Source: an uncultured Lactobacillus sp.
Lineage (GTDB): Bacteria > Bacillota > Bacilli > Lactobacillales > Lactobacillaceae
Assembly (NCBI GenBank): GCA_910589675.1
Contig: CAJUTO010000013.1
Coordinates: forward strand, 1-44,079
Direction: 5' to 3'
Length of the DNA stretch: 44,079 nucleotides
The position numbers and the translations under genes are program-made. Below are positions 131-12,452 of this stretch, in pieces (within the stretch, counting starts at the first letter, position 1; each line of letters opens with the position of its first letter). The notes under the pieces were generated by a model. It was not told the origin of the DNA and made no database searches. It was given only the letters and a program-made list of their open reading frames with translations.

Positions 131-3100
131 TTACAAAGGCTGAGTAGTCATTGCTAAAGTTTCAAGTACTATTAAAACATCTTGCGCTGATTGTAAACTA
201 GAAAAAACAGGAATATGTGTGCTTAAAGCTGCATCTTTAATCATAATTGCATCATGACTAGCAGAGTCGGATAAACTGGTTACATTGATTACTAGATTAA
301 TTCGATGCTGCTTTATCTTTTCAAGTAAGCTATTGCTTCCCTCTTGAACCTTTTCAATAATTCCTGTTGTTATTCCCTCTTCAGCTAATACATTTGCAGT
401 ACCTTCAGTTGCTAAAAGCTTAAAACCTAACTGATGAAAACGTGCAGCTATTTTAATTGCATTATGTTTTTCAGAATCTTTAACCGAAATAAAGACAGTA
501 CCATATGTTGAAATCATTAAATCACTGCCTTCATATCCTTTAAACAAGGCAGTCGGCAAATGCTTGGCTCGTCCCATCACACTACCAGAGGTCTTCATCT
601 TAGAATCAAAGGTATTTTCACTACTATATGATAAATAAGAAAAGACGGGCATTTTAACGTGAATTAAGTCGTTTGATGGCCAAATATCGCTTGGAAGATC
701 TAATTCAGACAATGTACTTCCTAACAAAACTTTCATTGTTATAGCTGTAATATCTTTTTTTAGTGCTTTAGTTAGAAAAGCTACATTGTGTCCAGAGTAA
801 CTTTTAATTTGTAATAAATAGATTTGATCATTAGCTAGTAAAAAGTGTAAGTTAACTGGTCCTCTTAAATTAAGTTTAGTGGCAATACTAATTGCACTAT
901 CACGTAATCTACGCTGATCATTAGTTGATAAATTTTGTGGACGATAGACAGCTATGGAGTCACTGGCATGTGAGCCGGTCTGTTCAAAGTGTTCAATAAT
1001 TCCGGGAATAGTAACATTTTTACCATCAGAAATAGCAGTCACTTCATACTTTTTACCTTCAATAAACTTCGAAACATTCATATGCTCTAATGAATTTTCA
1101 GCAATATATCTTTGTAAAGCTGGTAAATCAAAGACCACAGCAGATTTTTGCTTCTTACCGTTACTTGTACCACCAATTAAAGCTGGAAAACCATTTCTTT
1201 TAACAAAAGCTAAAATGCTTTCTTCATTGTCGCATTGAAGAGCTGGGACTGGATTAACGCCGGCCTGATATACTTCGTCTGCATGATCTTCCCTTAGAAT
1301 TTCCTTCAAATTAGGCTGACCTAAAATTGTTAGCCCATGTTCTAAGAGTGAACTGCGATATTCATTAATCTGTTTGCCAGAAAATTGCGTTACCACTTCT
1401 TTGATATTTTCTTTCCATGCAACTTCAAGAATATTTTCTAAAGTAATTGGTTCAAAGTAAATTCGATCGCATACATCATACGCTGCACTCACACTTTCTG
1501 GATTATTACTAATAATCACAGGACTAATTCCTTGCTCTTTTAAGGTCTTGGCAGCATGGTAGAGCATATAATCAAATTCTCCAGTTAGAGATACTTGAAA
1601 TGGTTTTAATCCTAAAAGAAGGCATTTTTTCGAATTAGATAGTGGTATTATTTCATCTTCAATTCCATAACTACTGTAAACAGCTTGAATATTAGGATGA
1701 ATTAATCCAGCTGTTCCATCAATTTCAATATAGCTAGGCTTAATTGACCATTTTTTACATAAATCAGCAATTGATTTTTCATCTCGCTGCGTAATTTCAG
1801 CAATTAATCGATTAGAAAAACCATTTTTCTTTACTTTCAGCATTAAATCAGCTGTAAGTTCATCATTACGTAATTTCTTTAATAAAATCAAAATATGATT
1901 AAACTTCTGCAAAAATACTAAATGAATATGTAAAAGCTGGTGAAGAGTGTGGTAATTAATTCCCTTTGCTATCGCGGCTAATAGTGTAATTAGGTGTATT
2001 TCATTAGGCTTCGATAGATCTTGCAATAATTCTTTTTCGCTTTTTTTATATTCCTTTTTAAAGGTCTTAACATTATTAGAAAAACCAGTAGTTGACTGGA
2101 GAGCCTTTAAAAATGCACTTTCAAAGTTACGACCAATTCCTAGAGCTTGGCCTCCGGAAGTGGTTTTATTATTAAGAGTGTAGTGATTATAACCAGCTTC
2201 TGTGAAAGACCAATAAGGTAATTTTACAAAGCAAGCATCTTGCACGGGATCAACAGCAGCAGAAATTCCAGATTGTGGATCGGTAATTTCATTTAAATTA
2301 TAGCCAAGTGCAATTTTGGCCGTTACATATCCAATAGAATATACGCCACTTCTATAAGAAAGCAAACTACTCTGAGTCAAACGGGGCTTAATACTTAATA
2401 CTTTAAAATTAAAGTCTTCCCCACTTTGCTTAACAGAAAAATGAATACTCAAAGCTCCATGTAAATTAAGACAATTAGCAATCTTTCGACAGCAATTTCT
2501 TAAGCGTTGAATTTGATTATTATTTCTAGTTAAAATTGGCGTCACTAATAAAGAATCTGAAGAATTAATACCAACTGGTTCTAAACTACCAATATTTCCT
2601 ACAAATACAAAATTTCCATTATTATCCCGAACAATATCAAAAATTAATTCTTCCCAATTCGATAAATCTTCAGTTAAACGATAATCTTTCCAATTAAAAT
2701 GGTCATCAGCTTCTTCGTCTAAGAAGTATTGCTCTAATTGAGTTAGATTTTCTAAAGAGATCATGCTATCGGGGCGATAATGCTGCTTTTTTGATAAAAG
2801 CAAAGGAAAATGAGCATGTTCAATTACTCGCCTTAAGTCCTCTTCTTTTTCTAACAGCCATTGATTGGCCACCGCAATCTTATTTGCTTTAAGAAAACTA
2901 TAGAAATTATGAGGAGCTGATAGACTCAATGCCAAGCTGTTAATAGTTAGTAACTCAATATTCATTTGGGTTAAGATGCCCGACTCTAATAATTCACTGG
3001 TAAGTTTTAAAGCCGGTTTGCCCCCAAAAGCCGGAATAATAGCATCTGGCTTCTCCATCCGAATGATTCGCTTCACAAAAGGCAACGTCATTGGTTCAAG

Positions 3101-3295
3101 ATATACATTTACATTAGGATGCGGATCTGTTGTGACGGTTGCAGGATTGGGATTAATCAATACAACTTGTACGTTACTTTCTTCAAAAGCCGTTAACGCT
3201 TGTTTAGCAAGAATATCAAGTTCTGTTACTTCTCCAACAATACTTGGCCCCGCTCCAATAACAAGAACTTTATTAATTTCATTATGTAAAGGCAT
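131..3295 (-). CDS. carB: CarB-like protein with degenerate ATP-grasp sites (carbamoyl-phosphate synthase large subunit homologue, probably inactive)
   Basis: The 1054 residues match the normal CarB length and domain order: ATP-grasp half 1 (about 1-400), oligomerisation region (about 410-550), ATP-grasp half 2 (about 555-930) and a C-terminal MGS-like allosteric domain (about 930-1054, with LATEGTA at 961-967). Both catalytic halves are badly eroded. The E-x-N-P-R metal-binding motif of half 1 is S301-I-K303-P-R, and its counterpart in half 2 is Q829-I-K831-S-Y. The Gln of the usual QFA/QFAV strand is His in both halves. The glycine-rich loops normally reading RPxxxxGGxGG are unrecognisable near 165-178 and 705-718, and HTGDS is N244-S-S-D-S. 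The frame is intact over 3.1 kb. It lies 3 nt after carA. It is either a pseudoenzyme with a retained effector domain or a gene at an early stage of decay. The homology is certain; lack of activity is inferred. Confidence 0.85.
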   Translation of the reverse strand: MPLHNEINKVLVIGAGPSIVGEVTELDILAKQALTAFEESNVQVVLINPNPATVTTDPHPNVNVYLEPMTLPFVKRIIRMEKPDAIIPAFGGKPALKLTSELLESGILTQMNIELLTINSLALSLSAPHNFYSFLKANKIAVANQWLLEKEEDLRRVIEHAHFPLLLSKKQHYRPDSMISLENLTQLEQYFLDEEADDHFNWKDYRLTEDLSNWEELIFDIVRDNNGNFVFVGNIGSLEPVGINSSDSLLVTPILTRNNNQIQRLRNCCRKIANCLNLHGALSIHFSVKQSGEDFNFKVLSIKPRLTQSSLLSYRSGVYSIGYVTAKIALGYNLNEITDPQSGISAAVDPVQDACFVKLPYWSFTEAGYNHYTLNNKTTSGGQALGIGRNFESAFLKALQSTTGFSNNVKTFKKEYKKSEKELLQDLSKPNEIHLITLLAAIAKGINYHTLHQLLHIHLVFLQKFNHILILLKKLRNDELTADLMLKVKKNGFSNRLIAEITQRDEKSIADLCKKWSIKPSYIEIDGTAGLIHPNIQAVYSSYGIEDEIIPLSNSKKCLLLGLKPFQVSLTGEFDYMLYHAAKTLKEQGISPVIISNNPESVSAAYDVCDRIYFEPITLENILEVAWKENIKEVVTQFSGKQINEYRSSLLEHGLTILGQPNLKEILREDHADEVYQAGVNPVPALQCDNEESILAFVKRNGFPALIGGTSNGKKQKSAVVFDLPALQRYIAENSLEHMNVSKFIEGKKYEVTAISDGKNVTIPGIIEHFEQTGSHASDSIAVYRPQNLSTNDQRRLRDSAISIATKLNLRGPVNLHFLLANDQIYLLQIKSYSGHNVAFLTKALKKDITAITMKVLLGSTLSELDLPSDIWPSNDLIHVKMPVFSYLSYSSENTFDSKMKTSGSVMGRAKHLPTALFKGYEGSDLMISTYGTVFISVKDSEKHNAIKIAARFHQLGFKLLATEGTANVLAEEGITTGIIEKVQEGSNSLLEKIKQHRINLVINVTSLSDSASHDAIMIKDAALSTHIPVFSSLQSAQDVLIVLETLAMTTQPL

Positions 3296-3298
3296 AGT

Positions 3299-4354
3299 CT
3301 ACTCCATCATATTTAAAAACTGATCATAAATGCTGGCTGCATCAAAATTACCTGGTGAACCTTCTGGATTAAAGGCAGTTGCTAAAACTTTATCTTCTTT
3401 GATACTATAGCCCGCTAATAACTCCGACCTTAAATCAAAATATTTACGTGAAAGATTCAAAGATAAACTATCAGGTACTACCAGTTGATCAATATTCATT
3501 GCAGTTTGCCAAATTCGATTATTAGTTTGTTCAATAACTGGAAAATTACTGCCATTATAGGCTGGAATTAAGTCCAAGAGTTCCAGATTTAAATAATTAC
3601 TAATTGCTAAAAAGCCTAAGCCAATTCCTAGAATAGGCAATTTTCCGTAAAACTTATCAAATACTGGTTTTAAAAATGGTGCAACTTCTTCTACTCTACT
3701 TGGCCCATTAGAAATAACAATTGCATCAGCTCGAAGATTAATAATATCGTAAATCGATGCATTGTATGGTAAAACCACACTATTAATTTTCCGTAAAGAA
3801 AGGGAGCGCAGTAATGAATGCTTTAAACCAAGATCAATTACAGCTACAGTTTTTCCAATATTTGGGGCAGCATAAGGATGCGTTGTAGATATTTGTGCTG
3901 TTTTGTTTTTTGGTAAAACCAGGGCCTTTATTTGATCAAAAGCATGGGCATCATCTGTATCCATAATAGACGCTTTAATAACCCGCTTATTCTTCAATTT
4001 TTGAACTAAAGCGCGAGTATCAACACCGTAGATTGCTGGAATTCTTTTCTCTTTTAGAAAATCATTTAAATCTTGAAAAGTTGGATTAGCAGAAATATGA
4101 AAAGCAATATCGTTAGCAATTATTCCACGTACACTTGGATCAATTGATTCATAGTCGATTGCATTAATACCACTTCCACCAATCATTGGAGTAGTAAAAG
4201 CCAAAATCTTACCAAAATTGGCAGGGTCGGAAATTGCTTCCTGATATCCAAAATTGCTTGTTTGAATACCGAGCTCCCCTGTAGCAGTAATGGGAGCACC
4301 AAAACCGTGTCCCGAAAATGCAGTTCCGTCTTCAAGAATTAAATATCTTTTCAT
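3299..4354 (-). CDS. carA: CarA-like protein lacking the glutaminase catalytic Cys and His (carbamoyl-phosphate synthase small subunit homologue)
   Basis: The 351 residues begin with the characteristic LEDGTAFSGHGFG segment of the CarA N-terminal domain, followed by a class I glutamine amidotransferase fold. In active CarA the nucleophile sits in G-I-C-L-G-H. Here it is G243-I-G245-L-G-F248, so the cysteine is glycine. The catalytic His before P-E is Asn (N329-P-E331), leaving only the Glu of the triad, and the glutamine-site Q-N-H motif reads M-N-I. The oxyanion-type SNGP segment is partly kept, and the SPG..DAA tail is kept. The protein should not release ammonia from glutamine. It starts 3 nt after rluD and ends 3 nt before carB, so all three are probably co-translated. 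No PyrR-type attenuator fits in these gaps. Confidence 0.87.
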   Translation of the reverse strand: MKRYLILEDGTAFSGHGFGAPITATGELGIQTSNFGYQEAISDPANFGKILAFTTPMIGGSGINAIDYESIDPSVRGIIANDIAFHISANPTFQDLNDFLKEKRIPAIYGVDTRALVQKLKNKRVIKASIMDTDDAHAFDQIKALVLPKNKTAQISTTHPYAAPNIGKTVAVIDLGLKHSLLRSLSLRKINSVVLPYNASIYDIINLRADAIVISNGPSRVEEVAPFLKPVFDKFYGKLPILGIGLGFLAISNYLNLELLDLIPAYNGSNFPVIEQTNNRIWQTAMNIDQLVVPDSLSLNLSRKYFDLRSELLAGYSIKEDKVLATAFNPEGSPGNFDAASIYDQFLNMME

Positions 4355-4357
4355 AAT

Positions 4358-5272
4358 CTATTGCTTCATTTCTTGTCGTAAATTCTTTAATTGTTTTTCA
4401 AAAATTGTTGGCAATGGTGCAGAAAATTCCAACCATTCATTCGTAGAAGGTTGATAAAATCCCAAAGTCTTGGCATGCAAAAATTGTCCATGACCTGACA
4501 AGGTTCTCTTTGGGCCATATAAGGGATCGCCAGCTAATGGATGACCGATGTACTTCATATGCACTCTAATTTGATGCGTTCTACCCGTTTCCAGTACACA
4601 TTTGACTAAACTATAATTTTTAAATTGCTCTAGTACTGTAAAGTGTGTAACTGCAGCTTTCCCCTTTGGATTAACCGCCATTTGCTTTCGATTATTTGGA
4701 TTTCTACCAATCGGAGCATTGATTACGCCATTTTTTACTTCAAAGTTGCCATGAACAATTGCCAAATATTCTCTTTTATTTATCTTTTCTGCTAATTGCT
4801 TTTCTAAGCTTTCACGTGCTTTATCATTTTTAGCTATCATTAATAAACCAGAGGTATCTTTATCAATTCGATGCACAATCCCTGGACGAAACCTTTCAGG
4901 ACTATCAGCTAAATCACGTGTATGATAAAGTAATCCGTTGACTAAAGTATGATCTGGATGACCGGCTGAGGGATGAACAACCATCCCTTGAGGCTTATTA
5001 ACCACAATCACATCCGAGTCTTCATAAACAATATCAAGATGTAAGTTTTCAGCTTCTAATGATAATGGTTTAACAGGCGGAATAGTAACATCAATTACAT
5101 CCCCAGACTGTACTTTATAAGATACTTTTTCAGCTTTATTATTAACTAAAATATTTTTATCATTAACTAATTCCTTAATCTTAGTTCGACTTAAATCTGT
5201 AATTTTCTCAGCGATTACCTTATCTAAACGTCCTTTTTCGTCATCAATTACTAATTTATAATTTTTAGTCAT
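4358..5272 (-). CDS. rluD: RluD-family 23S rRNA pseudouridine synthase (YlyB type)
   Basis: The 304-residue protein has an N-terminal S4 RNA-binding domain (about 15-75, including GRLDKVI and the DIDVTIPP-like end) and a RluA/RluD catalytic domain. The signature HRIDKDTSGLLMIAK includes the catalytic Asp137, and RTHQIRVHMKYIGHPLAGD forms the second conserved block. It isomerises uridines in 23S rRNA; the exact sites cannot be read from sequence. In Bacillus the same gene (ylyB) sits between lspA and the pyr operon. Here it follows lspA by 14 nt and precedes the carA homologue by 3 nt, which supports the view that this is the old pyr locus. Confidence 0.93.
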   Translation of the reverse strand: MTKNYKLVIDDEKGRLDKVIAEKITDLSRTKIKELVNDKNILVNNKAEKVSYKVQSGDVIDVTIPPVKPLSLEAENLHLDIVYEDSDVIVVNKPQGMVVHPSAGHPDHTLVNGLLYHTRDLADSPERFRPGIVHRIDKDTSGLLMIAKNDKARESLEKQLAEKINKREYLAIVHGNFEVKNGVINAPIGRNPNNRKQMAVNPKGKAAVTHFTVLEQFKNYSLVKCVLETGRTHQIRVHMKYIGHPLAGDPLYGPKRTLSGHGQFLHAKTLGFYQPSTNEWLEFSAPLPTIFEKQLKNLRQEMKQ

Positions 5273-5286
5273 TTACTCTTCGTCCT

Positions 5287-5751
5287 TTAGTCTTTTTCGC
5301 TTATAAATATTAGATAGATAAAAACTAAGATAATTCCAACTGTAATTGCGCTGTCAGCAATATTAAAGATATTAAATTGAATAAAATCTAGTTGCAACAT
5401 ATCAATTACATATTTTAGATGCAAACGATCAATAAAGTTACCAATGATTCCACCTAAAACTAAGGCTAATCCTGTATCAAAAAGGCCATTTTTATACTTT
5501 GGATTAAAAAGATAGTAAATTACAACTGCAATAGCGGCAATACTGATTAAATAAAATAAAATCATTTGTCCACTGAAGATATTCCAGGCTGCTCCATCGT
5601 TTTGTAAATATGTAAATGAAAGGACACCAGGAATAATGGTTTTTTCATCACCAATTTTAAAATTAGTAACTATATAATTCTTTAATAATTGATCTGCAAT
5701 AATTACTAATAAAGAAATTATTAGATATAAGGCTTGTTTAGCTTTACTCAT
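5287..5751 (-). CDS. lspA: lipoprotein signal peptidase (signal peptidase II)
   Basis: This 154-residue membrane protein has four hydrophobic segments (about 6-27, 62-81, 93-106 and 134-150). It carries the family blocks NDGAAWNIFSG, GNFIDRL and FNIADSAI, and the two catalytic aspartates are D117 (VID) and D133 (IADS). It removes signal peptides from prolipoproteins after lipidation at the cell membrane. Its start ATG overlaps the fhs stop codon by one base (TAATG), so translation is coupled to fhs. Confidence 0.96.
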   Translation of the reverse strand: MSKAKQALYLIISLLVIIADQLLKNYIVTNFKIGDEKTIIPGVLSFTYLQNDGAAWNIFSGQMILFYLISIAAIAVVIYYLFNPKYKNGLFDTGLALVLGGIIGNFIDRLHLKYVIDMLQLDFIQFNIFNIADSAITVGIILVFIYLIFISEKD

Positions 5752-11327: not shown

Positions 11328-12452
11328 TTATCTCTTATTAGCCCAATATTGATAATAGTCGGTCCGTAAATTACCATTATAGAATTTTCTCTTCTTAGTG
11401 GCCTTTGCACCAAAGTATTTTTCAAATTGAGGATCAGATGTAAGGTAGTACTGACTAAAAGAAGTAAGAGGACGCAATGTCTGTCCCATTTCTTCATAGA
11501 TCTTTTCAGCTGCTTCTCGATCCTTAAGCCGTTTACCATAAGGAGGATTTGCAACAATAACTCCATTTTCTAAGTCAGTTGAAAAGTCTTTTACAGCGAC
11601 TTGCTTAAATTTTACATCTTGTAATACGCCCGCATTATGCGCGTTCACTTTAGCAATTTCTAAAATTGATTGATCAATATCGCTAGCTAAGATTGGAGCA
11701 TGCTCCTTTTTTTCTTGTGCTTTAGCTTCTTCTACTAATTCGGGATGCAATTTCTTATCAAACCAATCAAAATTATCAAATGCAAATTTTCTCCAAATAC
11801 CAGGAGCTACATTTTTTGCCTTAAGAGCCGCTTCGATTGCAATTGTTCCGGAACCAGTCATAGGGTCAATAAAGGGATGAGAACCATCAAAAGGAGTTAG
11901 TTCAATCAAACCTGCTGCAAAATTTTCTTTTAAAGGAGCTCCACCATGCTCGACACGATAGCCACGTTTAAATAAACTTTGACCAGTAGTATCTAAGCTT
12001 AAACGTGCAGTGTCTTTGTAGAGATGGATGTCTAGCGGATACTCGGCCCCGCTTTCTGGTAAAAATCCACGTCTTCGATATTGATCGGTCAACTTATCTA
12101 CAATAGCCTTTTTTACAATTGATTGAACATCAGGTTCAGAATGTAACTTACTACGGACGCTTCTTCCCTTTACAGGAAATTGAGCATCTACCGGTAATAA
12201 TTCTGCCCAATCATAGCTATAAACTTCATCATATAATTGGTCAAAACTGGTGGCCTTAAATTCTTTTAGTAAGATCTTTACGCGGTCAGCACTTCTCAGC
12301 CATAGATTAGTTCTTACAATATCTTTTTGGGTTCCTTTAAAAAATACACGGCCATTTTCAGTTGTTGTTTCATAACCTAAATTGTTTAATTCTTTTGCAA
12401 CTACACTTTCAAATCCAGCGCCCATTGTTGCATATAATGTATATTCTTTCAT
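11328..12452 (-). CDS. ypsC: THUMP-domain class I 23S rRNA guanine methyltransferase (YpsC/RlmL N-half type)
   Basis: The 374-residue protein has a ferredoxin-like/THUMP N-terminal part (about 1-160) followed by a SAM-dependent methyltransferase domain. Motifs: DPMTGSGTIAIEAA (SAM-binding loop, about 196-210), ASDIDQSIL (motif II) and the base-flipping NPPYGKRL (motif IV). It most probably makes an N2-methylguanine in 23S rRNA. It is located downstream of rnpB, as in Bacillus (gpsB-rnpB-ypsC). Confidence 0.92.
   Translation of the reverse strand: MKEYTLYATMGAGFESVVAKELNNLGYETTTENGRVFFKGTQKDIVRTNLWLRSADRVKILLKEFKATSFDQLYDEVYSYDWAELLPVDAQFPVKGRSVRSKLHSEPDVQSIVKKAIVDKLTDQYRRRGFLPESGAEYPLDIHLYKDTARLSLDTTGQSLFKRGYRVEHGGAPLKENFAAGLIELTPFDGSHPFIDPMTGSGTIAIEAALKAKNVAPGIWRKFAFDNFDWFDKKLHPELVEEAKAQEKKEHAPILASDIDQSILEIAKVNAHNAGVLQDVKFKQVAVKDFSTDLENGVIVANPPYGKRLKDREAAEKIYEEMGQTLRPLTSFSQYYLTSDPQFEKYFGAKATKKRKFYNGNLRTDYYQYWANKR

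Follow-up and report, generated by a model that had tools for sequence, protein, structure and literature searches.

A full-length, apparently non-catalytic carbamoyl phosphate synthetase pair maintained across Lactobacillus

Why does a 44,079 bp stretch of DNA from an uncultured Lactobacillus sp. (contig CAJUTO010000013.1 of assembly GCA_910589675.1; hereafter the window) encode the small and large subunits of a carbamoyl phosphate synthetase (CPSase), complete in architecture and lacking the residues needed for catalysis? We call these two proteins CarA' and CarB'. Nearly all Lactobacillus species carry such a complete, seemingly dead CPSase copy kept intact by selection, and it therefore probably has a different, regulatory job. 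The explanation we favour, which we judge about evenly balanced between right and wrong, is that CarA'-CarB' is an ancient full-length pseudo-CPSase, derived from the CarAB of an ancestral pyr operon, that would serve in Lactobacillus as a ligand-sensing regulatory complex.

Loss of the catalytic centres

The pair and its principal sites are located in the window as follows.

131..3295, minus strand: CarB', pseudo-CPSase large subunit, 1054 aa (open reading frame listing, Pfam, structure models)
3299..4354, minus strand: CarA', pseudo-CPSase small subunit, 351 aa (open reading frame listing, Pfam, structure models)
3620..3622, minus strand: codon of CarA' G245, at the position of nucleophile Cys269 (G in 74/74 alignment rows)
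3368..3370, minus strand: codon of CarA' N329, at the position of catalytic His353 (N in 74/74 rows)
2081..2935, minus strand: N-terminal ATP-grasp half of CarB', aa 121-405, dead (residue alignment, divergence ratio)
2387..2395, minus strand: codons of CarB' S301-x-K303, at the position of metal-binding E299-x-N301 (residue alignment)
491..1300, minus strand: C-terminal ATP-grasp half of CarB', aa 666-935, dead, with new fixed residues (alignment, divergence ratio)
803..811, minus strand: codons of CarB' Q829-x-K831, at the position of metal-binding E841-x-N843 (Q and K in 74/74 rows)
134..490, minus strand: MGS effector domain of CarB', aa 936-1054, effector residues kept (Pfam, residue alignment)

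Residues were compared in a 74-row alignment comprising 71 of 75 Lactobacillus genomes (all but G032, G040, G046 and G062) together with G101, G113 (Holzapfeliella floricola) and G137, whose row (L038) is partial; replaced positions (e.g. C269, H353, E841) are numbered after E. coli CarAB. CarA' and CarB' are adjacent in every row. The CarA substitutions C269G, Q273L and H353N are each fixed (74/74), E355 and K202 are retained throughout, and CarB' carries R715G, E761K, E841Q, N843K and R848H in all 74 rows and Q829H, Q285H and R845Y in 72 each. Position 299 of CarB' is never E, and position 301 is K in 58 rows and R in 11. In the window itself E299/N301, E841/N843 and the glycine loops G175/G176 and G721/G722 are all replaced. 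CarA' thus lacks the Cys nucleophile and His by which the class-I glutaminase of an active CPSase is recognised, and neither ATP-grasp half of CarB' has its metal ligands or glycine loop. A preliminary description of this DNA, made from the sequence alone, had read Gly245 and Asn329 for the nucleophile and catalytic His of CarA', and S-x-K (301/303), Q-x-K (829/831) and lost glycine loops in CarB'; alignment with E. coli CarAB reproduces these readings exactly. The open frames, full domain order and well-kept MGS domain that it reported are likewise borne out by the reading frames, Pfam and effector residues.

Recurrence of the same replacements across 74 rows rules out a sequencing artefact. 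Pfam recognises the CPSase domains of both proteins, MGS included, and the domain order and, as predicted by structure models, the fold of CarA and CarB are retained. By homology to an enzyme whose catalytic residues it has lost, CarA'-CarB' qualifies as a putative pseudoenzyme, and judged from its sequence the pair is almost certainly non-catalytic and maintained.

Distribution in Lactobacillus and purifying selection

A CarB' orthologue was matched in 74 of the 75 Lactobacillus genomes, at 48-100% identity where full length; the sole genome without a match (G046) is 59% complete, and CarB' is partial at contig ends in G040 and G062. Among the matched genomes a stop interrupts CarB' only in G016 (L125), a draft of putative L. 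hamsteri that is also without canonical CarB and without an aspartate transcarbamoylase (ATCase) scoring over the cut-off. Ratios of non-synonymous to synonymous substitution (dN/dS, NG86) in 30 close, partly overlapping pairs were 0-0.079 for CarA' and 0.020-0.124 for CarB', within the range of neighbour genes. Means over five johnsonii-group genomes, in which dS is near saturation, were 0.016 and 0.039, respectively, and the neighbours rluD, lspA, rqcH and fhs gave 0.03-0.04 in the same five genomes. Companilactobacillus medians, from two pairs only, were 0.012 for CarA' and 0.024 for CarB'. These ratios and the near-universal open frames are those of a pseudoenzyme under purifying selection.

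Persistence without the pyrimidine pathway

A second, intact carAB, which the preliminary description had proposed to look for, is present in the window genome in an active pyr cluster elsewhere (G000:C9) containing pyrR, pyrB, pyrC, carA, carB, pyrD, pyrF and pyrE; CarB' is 29% identical to this active CarB. ATCase scored above cut-off in 52 of the 75 Lactobacillus genomes. Canonical CarB and an ATCase over the cut-off are both missing from twelve genomes that are at least 95% complete (G004, G016, G018, G022, G036, G037, G039, G044, G045, G047, G067 and G074, among them putative L. hominis, G018, L. jensenii, G022, and L. psittaci, G036); all of them but G016, 11 in total, have an intact pseudo pair. 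Two further genomes have a broken active gene beside an intact pseudo pair: active carB is a 179-residue remnant next to a stop-bearing ATCase piece in G008 (putative L. colini), and has an internal deletion in G056.

G008:C1:386968-388086: broken active carB and pyrB
G056:C14:94933-96510: broken active carB

Loss or breakage affects active carB in more genomes than it does CarB', and the CarA'B' pair outlives the pyrimidine pathway. A role only as partner of active CarAB was rejected because 11 genomes have an intact pair and no active CarAB.

Locus, family and origin

Genes upstream of CarA' lie in the same orientation and were named from similarity and context.

4358..5272, minus strand: rluD, directly upstream of CarA', same orientation, 3-bp gap
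5287..5751, minus strand: lspA, upstream member of the same cluster

An fhs gene, named on the same basis, is also upstream on this strand. The cluster lspA-rluD-CarA'-CarB' is conserved, with rluD-CarA' spacing mostly between -4 and +12 bp. The locus was surveyed in 34 of 40 Lactobacillaceae genera (leaving out g27, g29, g30, g31, g33 and g37), often with one or two genomes each. A CarA' with the Cys-to-Gly change and a degenerate partner occupy the post-rluD locus in 20 of the 34, making the single johnsonii-group locus of the preliminary description too narrow a scope. An active operon is found there in five genera (in g34 only the rluD side is visible), and no CarAB-like genes were seen beside rqcH in nine (g2, g7, g8, g17, g19, g20, g23, g24 and g39; one or two genomes each), nor in about 9.5 kb inspected in a second g38 genome (L297). 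Judged by length and alignment, with Pfam on five examples, CarB' retains its MGS part in seven of the 20 genera.

Between rluD and rqcH, Agrilactobacillus (L245, L246) and g26 (L131) have an active pyrR-pyrP-pyrB-pyrC-carA-carB with pyrF-pyrE; Holzapfeliella has rluD-pyrR-pyrP-CarA'-CarB' and g28 has rluD-pyrP-CarA'-CarB', both with a PyrR leader RNA; and Lactobacillus has rluD-CarA'-CarB'. On these loci the simplest origin of CarA' is pyr-operon CarA, beside active forms of which it also places in trees and with which it has a linker motif in common. The pseudo rows formed one clade in the first CarA trees (SH-aLRT 99 and 97), and trees of all genera allow a single Cys-to-Gly origin (approximately unbiased test, AU, 0.66; CarB N-half AU 0.50). 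With active-site columns and four long rows dropped, the free tree is 11 log-likelihood units better than a single origin (AU 0.13), so that the change may have had one origin or a few. The AU test did not exclude a grouping of Schleiferilactobacillus and Agrilactobacillus (0.063).

Effector site and uneven constraint

Effector residues of the MGS domain are kept at K954 in 73 of the 74 rows and at T974, T977, K993 and N1015 in 72 each, the exceptions being gaps plus one D at N1015; CarB' thus has the effector site of an active CPSase. Constraint was gauged by a matched control in which divergence of pseudo and active CarAB was compared in the same 30 genomes, the best-scoring for the G050 query among 51 with full-length active CarB. 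The pseudo-to-active ratio was 1.09 (0.87-1.38) for MGS, 0.92 (0.67-1.24) for the CarA N-domain, 5.56 (4.34-7.48) for ATP-grasp-N, where constraint falls furthest below that of the active enzyme, 2.30 for ATP-grasp-C, 1.97 for GATase and 2.1 for the oligomerisation domain. Stronger conservation of MGS than in active enzymes, suggested by a comparison of unequal breadth (69 pseudo versus 24 active rows), was not upheld by this control.

A sensing complex and its rivals

We suggest that the CarAB of an ancestral pyr operon between rluD and rqcH became CarA'-CarB', which selection would now maintain for a job other than carbamoyl-phosphate synthesis. In Lactobacillus, CarA' and CarB' would still pair, the MGS domain would bind a ligand of the uridine monophosphate (UMP), inosine monophosphate or phosphoribosyl pyrophosphate (PRPP) type, and the resulting conformational change may travel via the C-terminal ATP-grasp half, now re-tooled, and the N-domain of CarA', so that a signal reaches a partner with a part in pyrimidine homeostasis. 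Among relatives this partner would most likely be PyrR or PyrP, the uracil permease, whose genes adjoin the pair. Catalytic loss and its fixation, purifying selection, the fold as modelled, the effector site, the ancestral locus and persistence without the active pathway are computed directly; that the Lactobacillus pair is a nucleotide (UMP/PRPP-type) sensor has about an even chance of being right. The preliminary description had likewise proposed a sensing pseudoenzyme, and a maintained pair whose effector domain is constrained like that of the active enzyme fits ligand sensing. As an account of the whole family the proposal is too narrow: MGS has been lost in 12 of the 20 genera, and nucleotide sensing by MGS therefore cannot be the common function. 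In such genera the job would have had to shift or to fall to the N-half and PyrR.

Several results weigh against a sensing complex. In those 12 genera CarB' is shortened to about 790-900 aa with MGS absent (Pfam-checked in two), and in g10 the frame beside CarA' is not recognised as CarB. Constraint on MGS in the matched control is equal to, not stronger than, that of the active enzyme, and of 85 nearly invariant columns in the C-terminal ATP-grasp half, 32 are switched, newly fixed residues, a pattern that would also fit a new enzyme. The Lactobacillus pair does not adjoin pyrR; scans of L055, L077 and L114, three Lactobacillus loci with the pair, gave no PyrR leader (RF00515) at the gathering score, and among nine further loci scanned in other genera only one (L270) had it and the remaining eight had none.

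A neofunctionalised enzyme is the first rival, and we consider it unlikely. The C-terminal ATP-grasp half would then be a new active site, with K749, H776, H817, Q829, K831, Y833 and H836 fixed and MGS allosteric. G708, K749, H776, Q829, K831 and H836 are indeed present in 74 of 74 rows and H817 and Y833 in 72, the 32 switched columns are in this half, and its divergence, measured against the active enzyme, is smaller than that of the N-half (2.30-fold versus 5.56-fold). Yet metal-binding residues are replaced at both ATP sites and both glycine loops are lost, the C-half is partly deleted in the 12 genera with short CarB' (to 149 of 265 columns in Companilactobacillus L201), and we know of no ATP-grasp chemistry without acidic metal ligands.

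Dead CarA'B' might instead be a structural or chaperone partner needed for assembly or stability of another enzyme, by analogy with the pseudo-dihydroorotase of Pseudomonas aeruginosa ATCase, a precedent in the same pathway (PMC7053772). Retention of the whole architecture and a CarA' N-domain as constrained as that of active CarA fit this possibility; active CarAB and ATCase, the partners one would expect first, are missing in 11 Lactobacillus genomes with an intact pair, and by itself it leaves the invariance of the effector residues unexplained, so that we regard it as improbable.

It is very doubtful that CarA'B' is still a working CPSase with unusual chemistry: databases name it so, and it passes the looser NCBIfam PRK models NF003671 (676.5 versus a cut-off of 599) and NF009475 (414.4 versus 221), but it falls below the stricter equivalog models TIGR01369 (651.3 versus 1027) and TIGR01368 (240 versus 307.35), it has kept neither nucleophile nor catalytic His nor either metal site, and it is still present in genomes with no ATCase over the cut-off to consume carbamoyl phosphate. 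Recent relaxation of selection, the 'dull alternative' of the preliminary description, by which the pair would be a pseudogene in the making, is hardly credible: the N-half ATP-grasp and oligomerisation domain do diverge faster than their active counterparts, by 5.6-fold and 2.1-fold, and CarB' of G016 has a stop, yet identical substitutions fixed in 74 rows, dN/dS of 0-0.12 in close pairs (far from 1), a single stop-bearing orthologue among the 74 matched genomes, and an active carB lost or broken more often than CarB' exclude decay.

Association with PyrR

Beyond Lactobacillus the pair keeps company with pyrimidine regulation, pyrR being just upstream of CarA'-CarB', either adjoining it or separated from it by pyrP, in 15 of the 20 genera. 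A PyrR leader RNA lies ahead of pyrP-CarA'B' in L115 and ahead of pyrR-pyrP-CarA'B' in L116 and L270. One g38 locus (L296), whose CarA' shares 93% identity with a protein of L. plantarum, reads lspA-rluD-PyrR-CarA'-CarB', with the PyrR gene directly before the pair. L. plantarum PyrR2 is an inorganic-carbon-dependent pyr regulator; it belongs to the PyrR family and is no CPSase. It is listed as lp_1782 (PMC7911632), and PyrR1 and PyrR2 are named as controllers (PMC3582564); we infer that lp_1782 lies next to the pseudo pair of L. plantarum.

A broader proposal, which we consider a long shot, is a two-part pyrimidine/CO2 control module across Lactobacillaceae, in which a PyrR2-type regulator would be joined by dead CarAB as its ligand-sensing half, reporting inorganic carbon or nucleotide supply to pyr expression. 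Sensing would fall to the former bicarbonate/ATP half in the short L. plantarum-type CarB' and to MGS in Lactobacillus. Such a module, if real, would account for the response to inorganic carbon that L. plantarum reportedly mounts through PyrR2, and the association offers a direct clue to how CO2 could be registered by PyrR2-type regulators. A pyrR2 mutant of this species is described as requiring high CO2.

Two observations concern PyrR itself. The active pyr cluster of the window genome has two PyrR genes, at the head of the cluster and directly after carB.

L127 (G000:C9:33000-50000), 4412-4948 and 11626-12192, minus strand: the two PyrR genes

In g10 (L268, L269) the PyrR beside pseudo-CarA is without the PRPP-binding loop, which is kept in the other 38 of 40 aligned PyrRs, and may be described as a pseudo-PyrR adjoining a pseudo-CarA.

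Relation to known systems

CarA'B' has its architecture, subunit order and MGS effector residues in common with glutamine-dependent CarAB (E. coli 1bxr/1jdb; pyr-operon CarAB of Lactobacillaceae), and the nearest relatives of CarA' are pyr-operon CarA. Unlike active CarAB, it is without catalytic Cys and His, ATP-grasp metal ligands and glycine loops, has new fixed residues and is kept without the pathway. Human CPS1 has, like CarA', naturally lost its glutaminase nucleophile; it differs in retaining both ATP-grasp sites and making carbamoyl phosphate from ammonia. An allosteric C-terminal domain (5dot, 6uel) is a further point in common. The pseudo-dihydroorotase of P. aeruginosa is likewise a retained dead paralogue of a pyrimidine-pathway enzyme, but it is a subunit of an active enzyme (PMC7053772), whereas CarA'B' outlives its pathway. 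A literature search, with subscription papers mostly beyond reach, returned no description of an inactive CPSase pair in lactobacilli, which is weak evidence of novelty.

The pair is an apparent case of a large two-subunit enzyme turned in its entirety into a non-catalytic complex, the allosteric domain being constrained as in the active enzyme. Databases annotate it as working CPSase, and metabolic models that credit it with this activity would be wrong, worst where it is the only 'carAB' of a species. Protein searches returned Gly for the nucleophile in 116 of the 120 best listed of 2211 hits and, in a second search, in all 120 best listed of 7234 (one partial and frame-doubtful); the listed hits are named carbamoyl phosphate synthase small subunit or similar, with one 'hypothetical protein'.

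Degenerate CarAB of other kinds

Loigolactobacillus rennini (G107/L251, g34) has a degenerate CarAB with the Cys nucleophile kept, H353L and dead ATP sites; a sister genome in the genus has the full active operon, and CarA and CarB trees disagree on the origin of L251. Its convergence with Lactobacillus (N301K, E761K, N843K and R845Y among others) is not significant, with 11 of 32 shared against 7.3 expected (P = 0.07). In g22 (L286, L287) and Schleiferilactobacillus (L190-L192) the N-terminal ATP-grasp of CarB' keeps every checked residue and the C-half is dead, a combination that would possibly leave a bicarbonate-dependent ATPase only.

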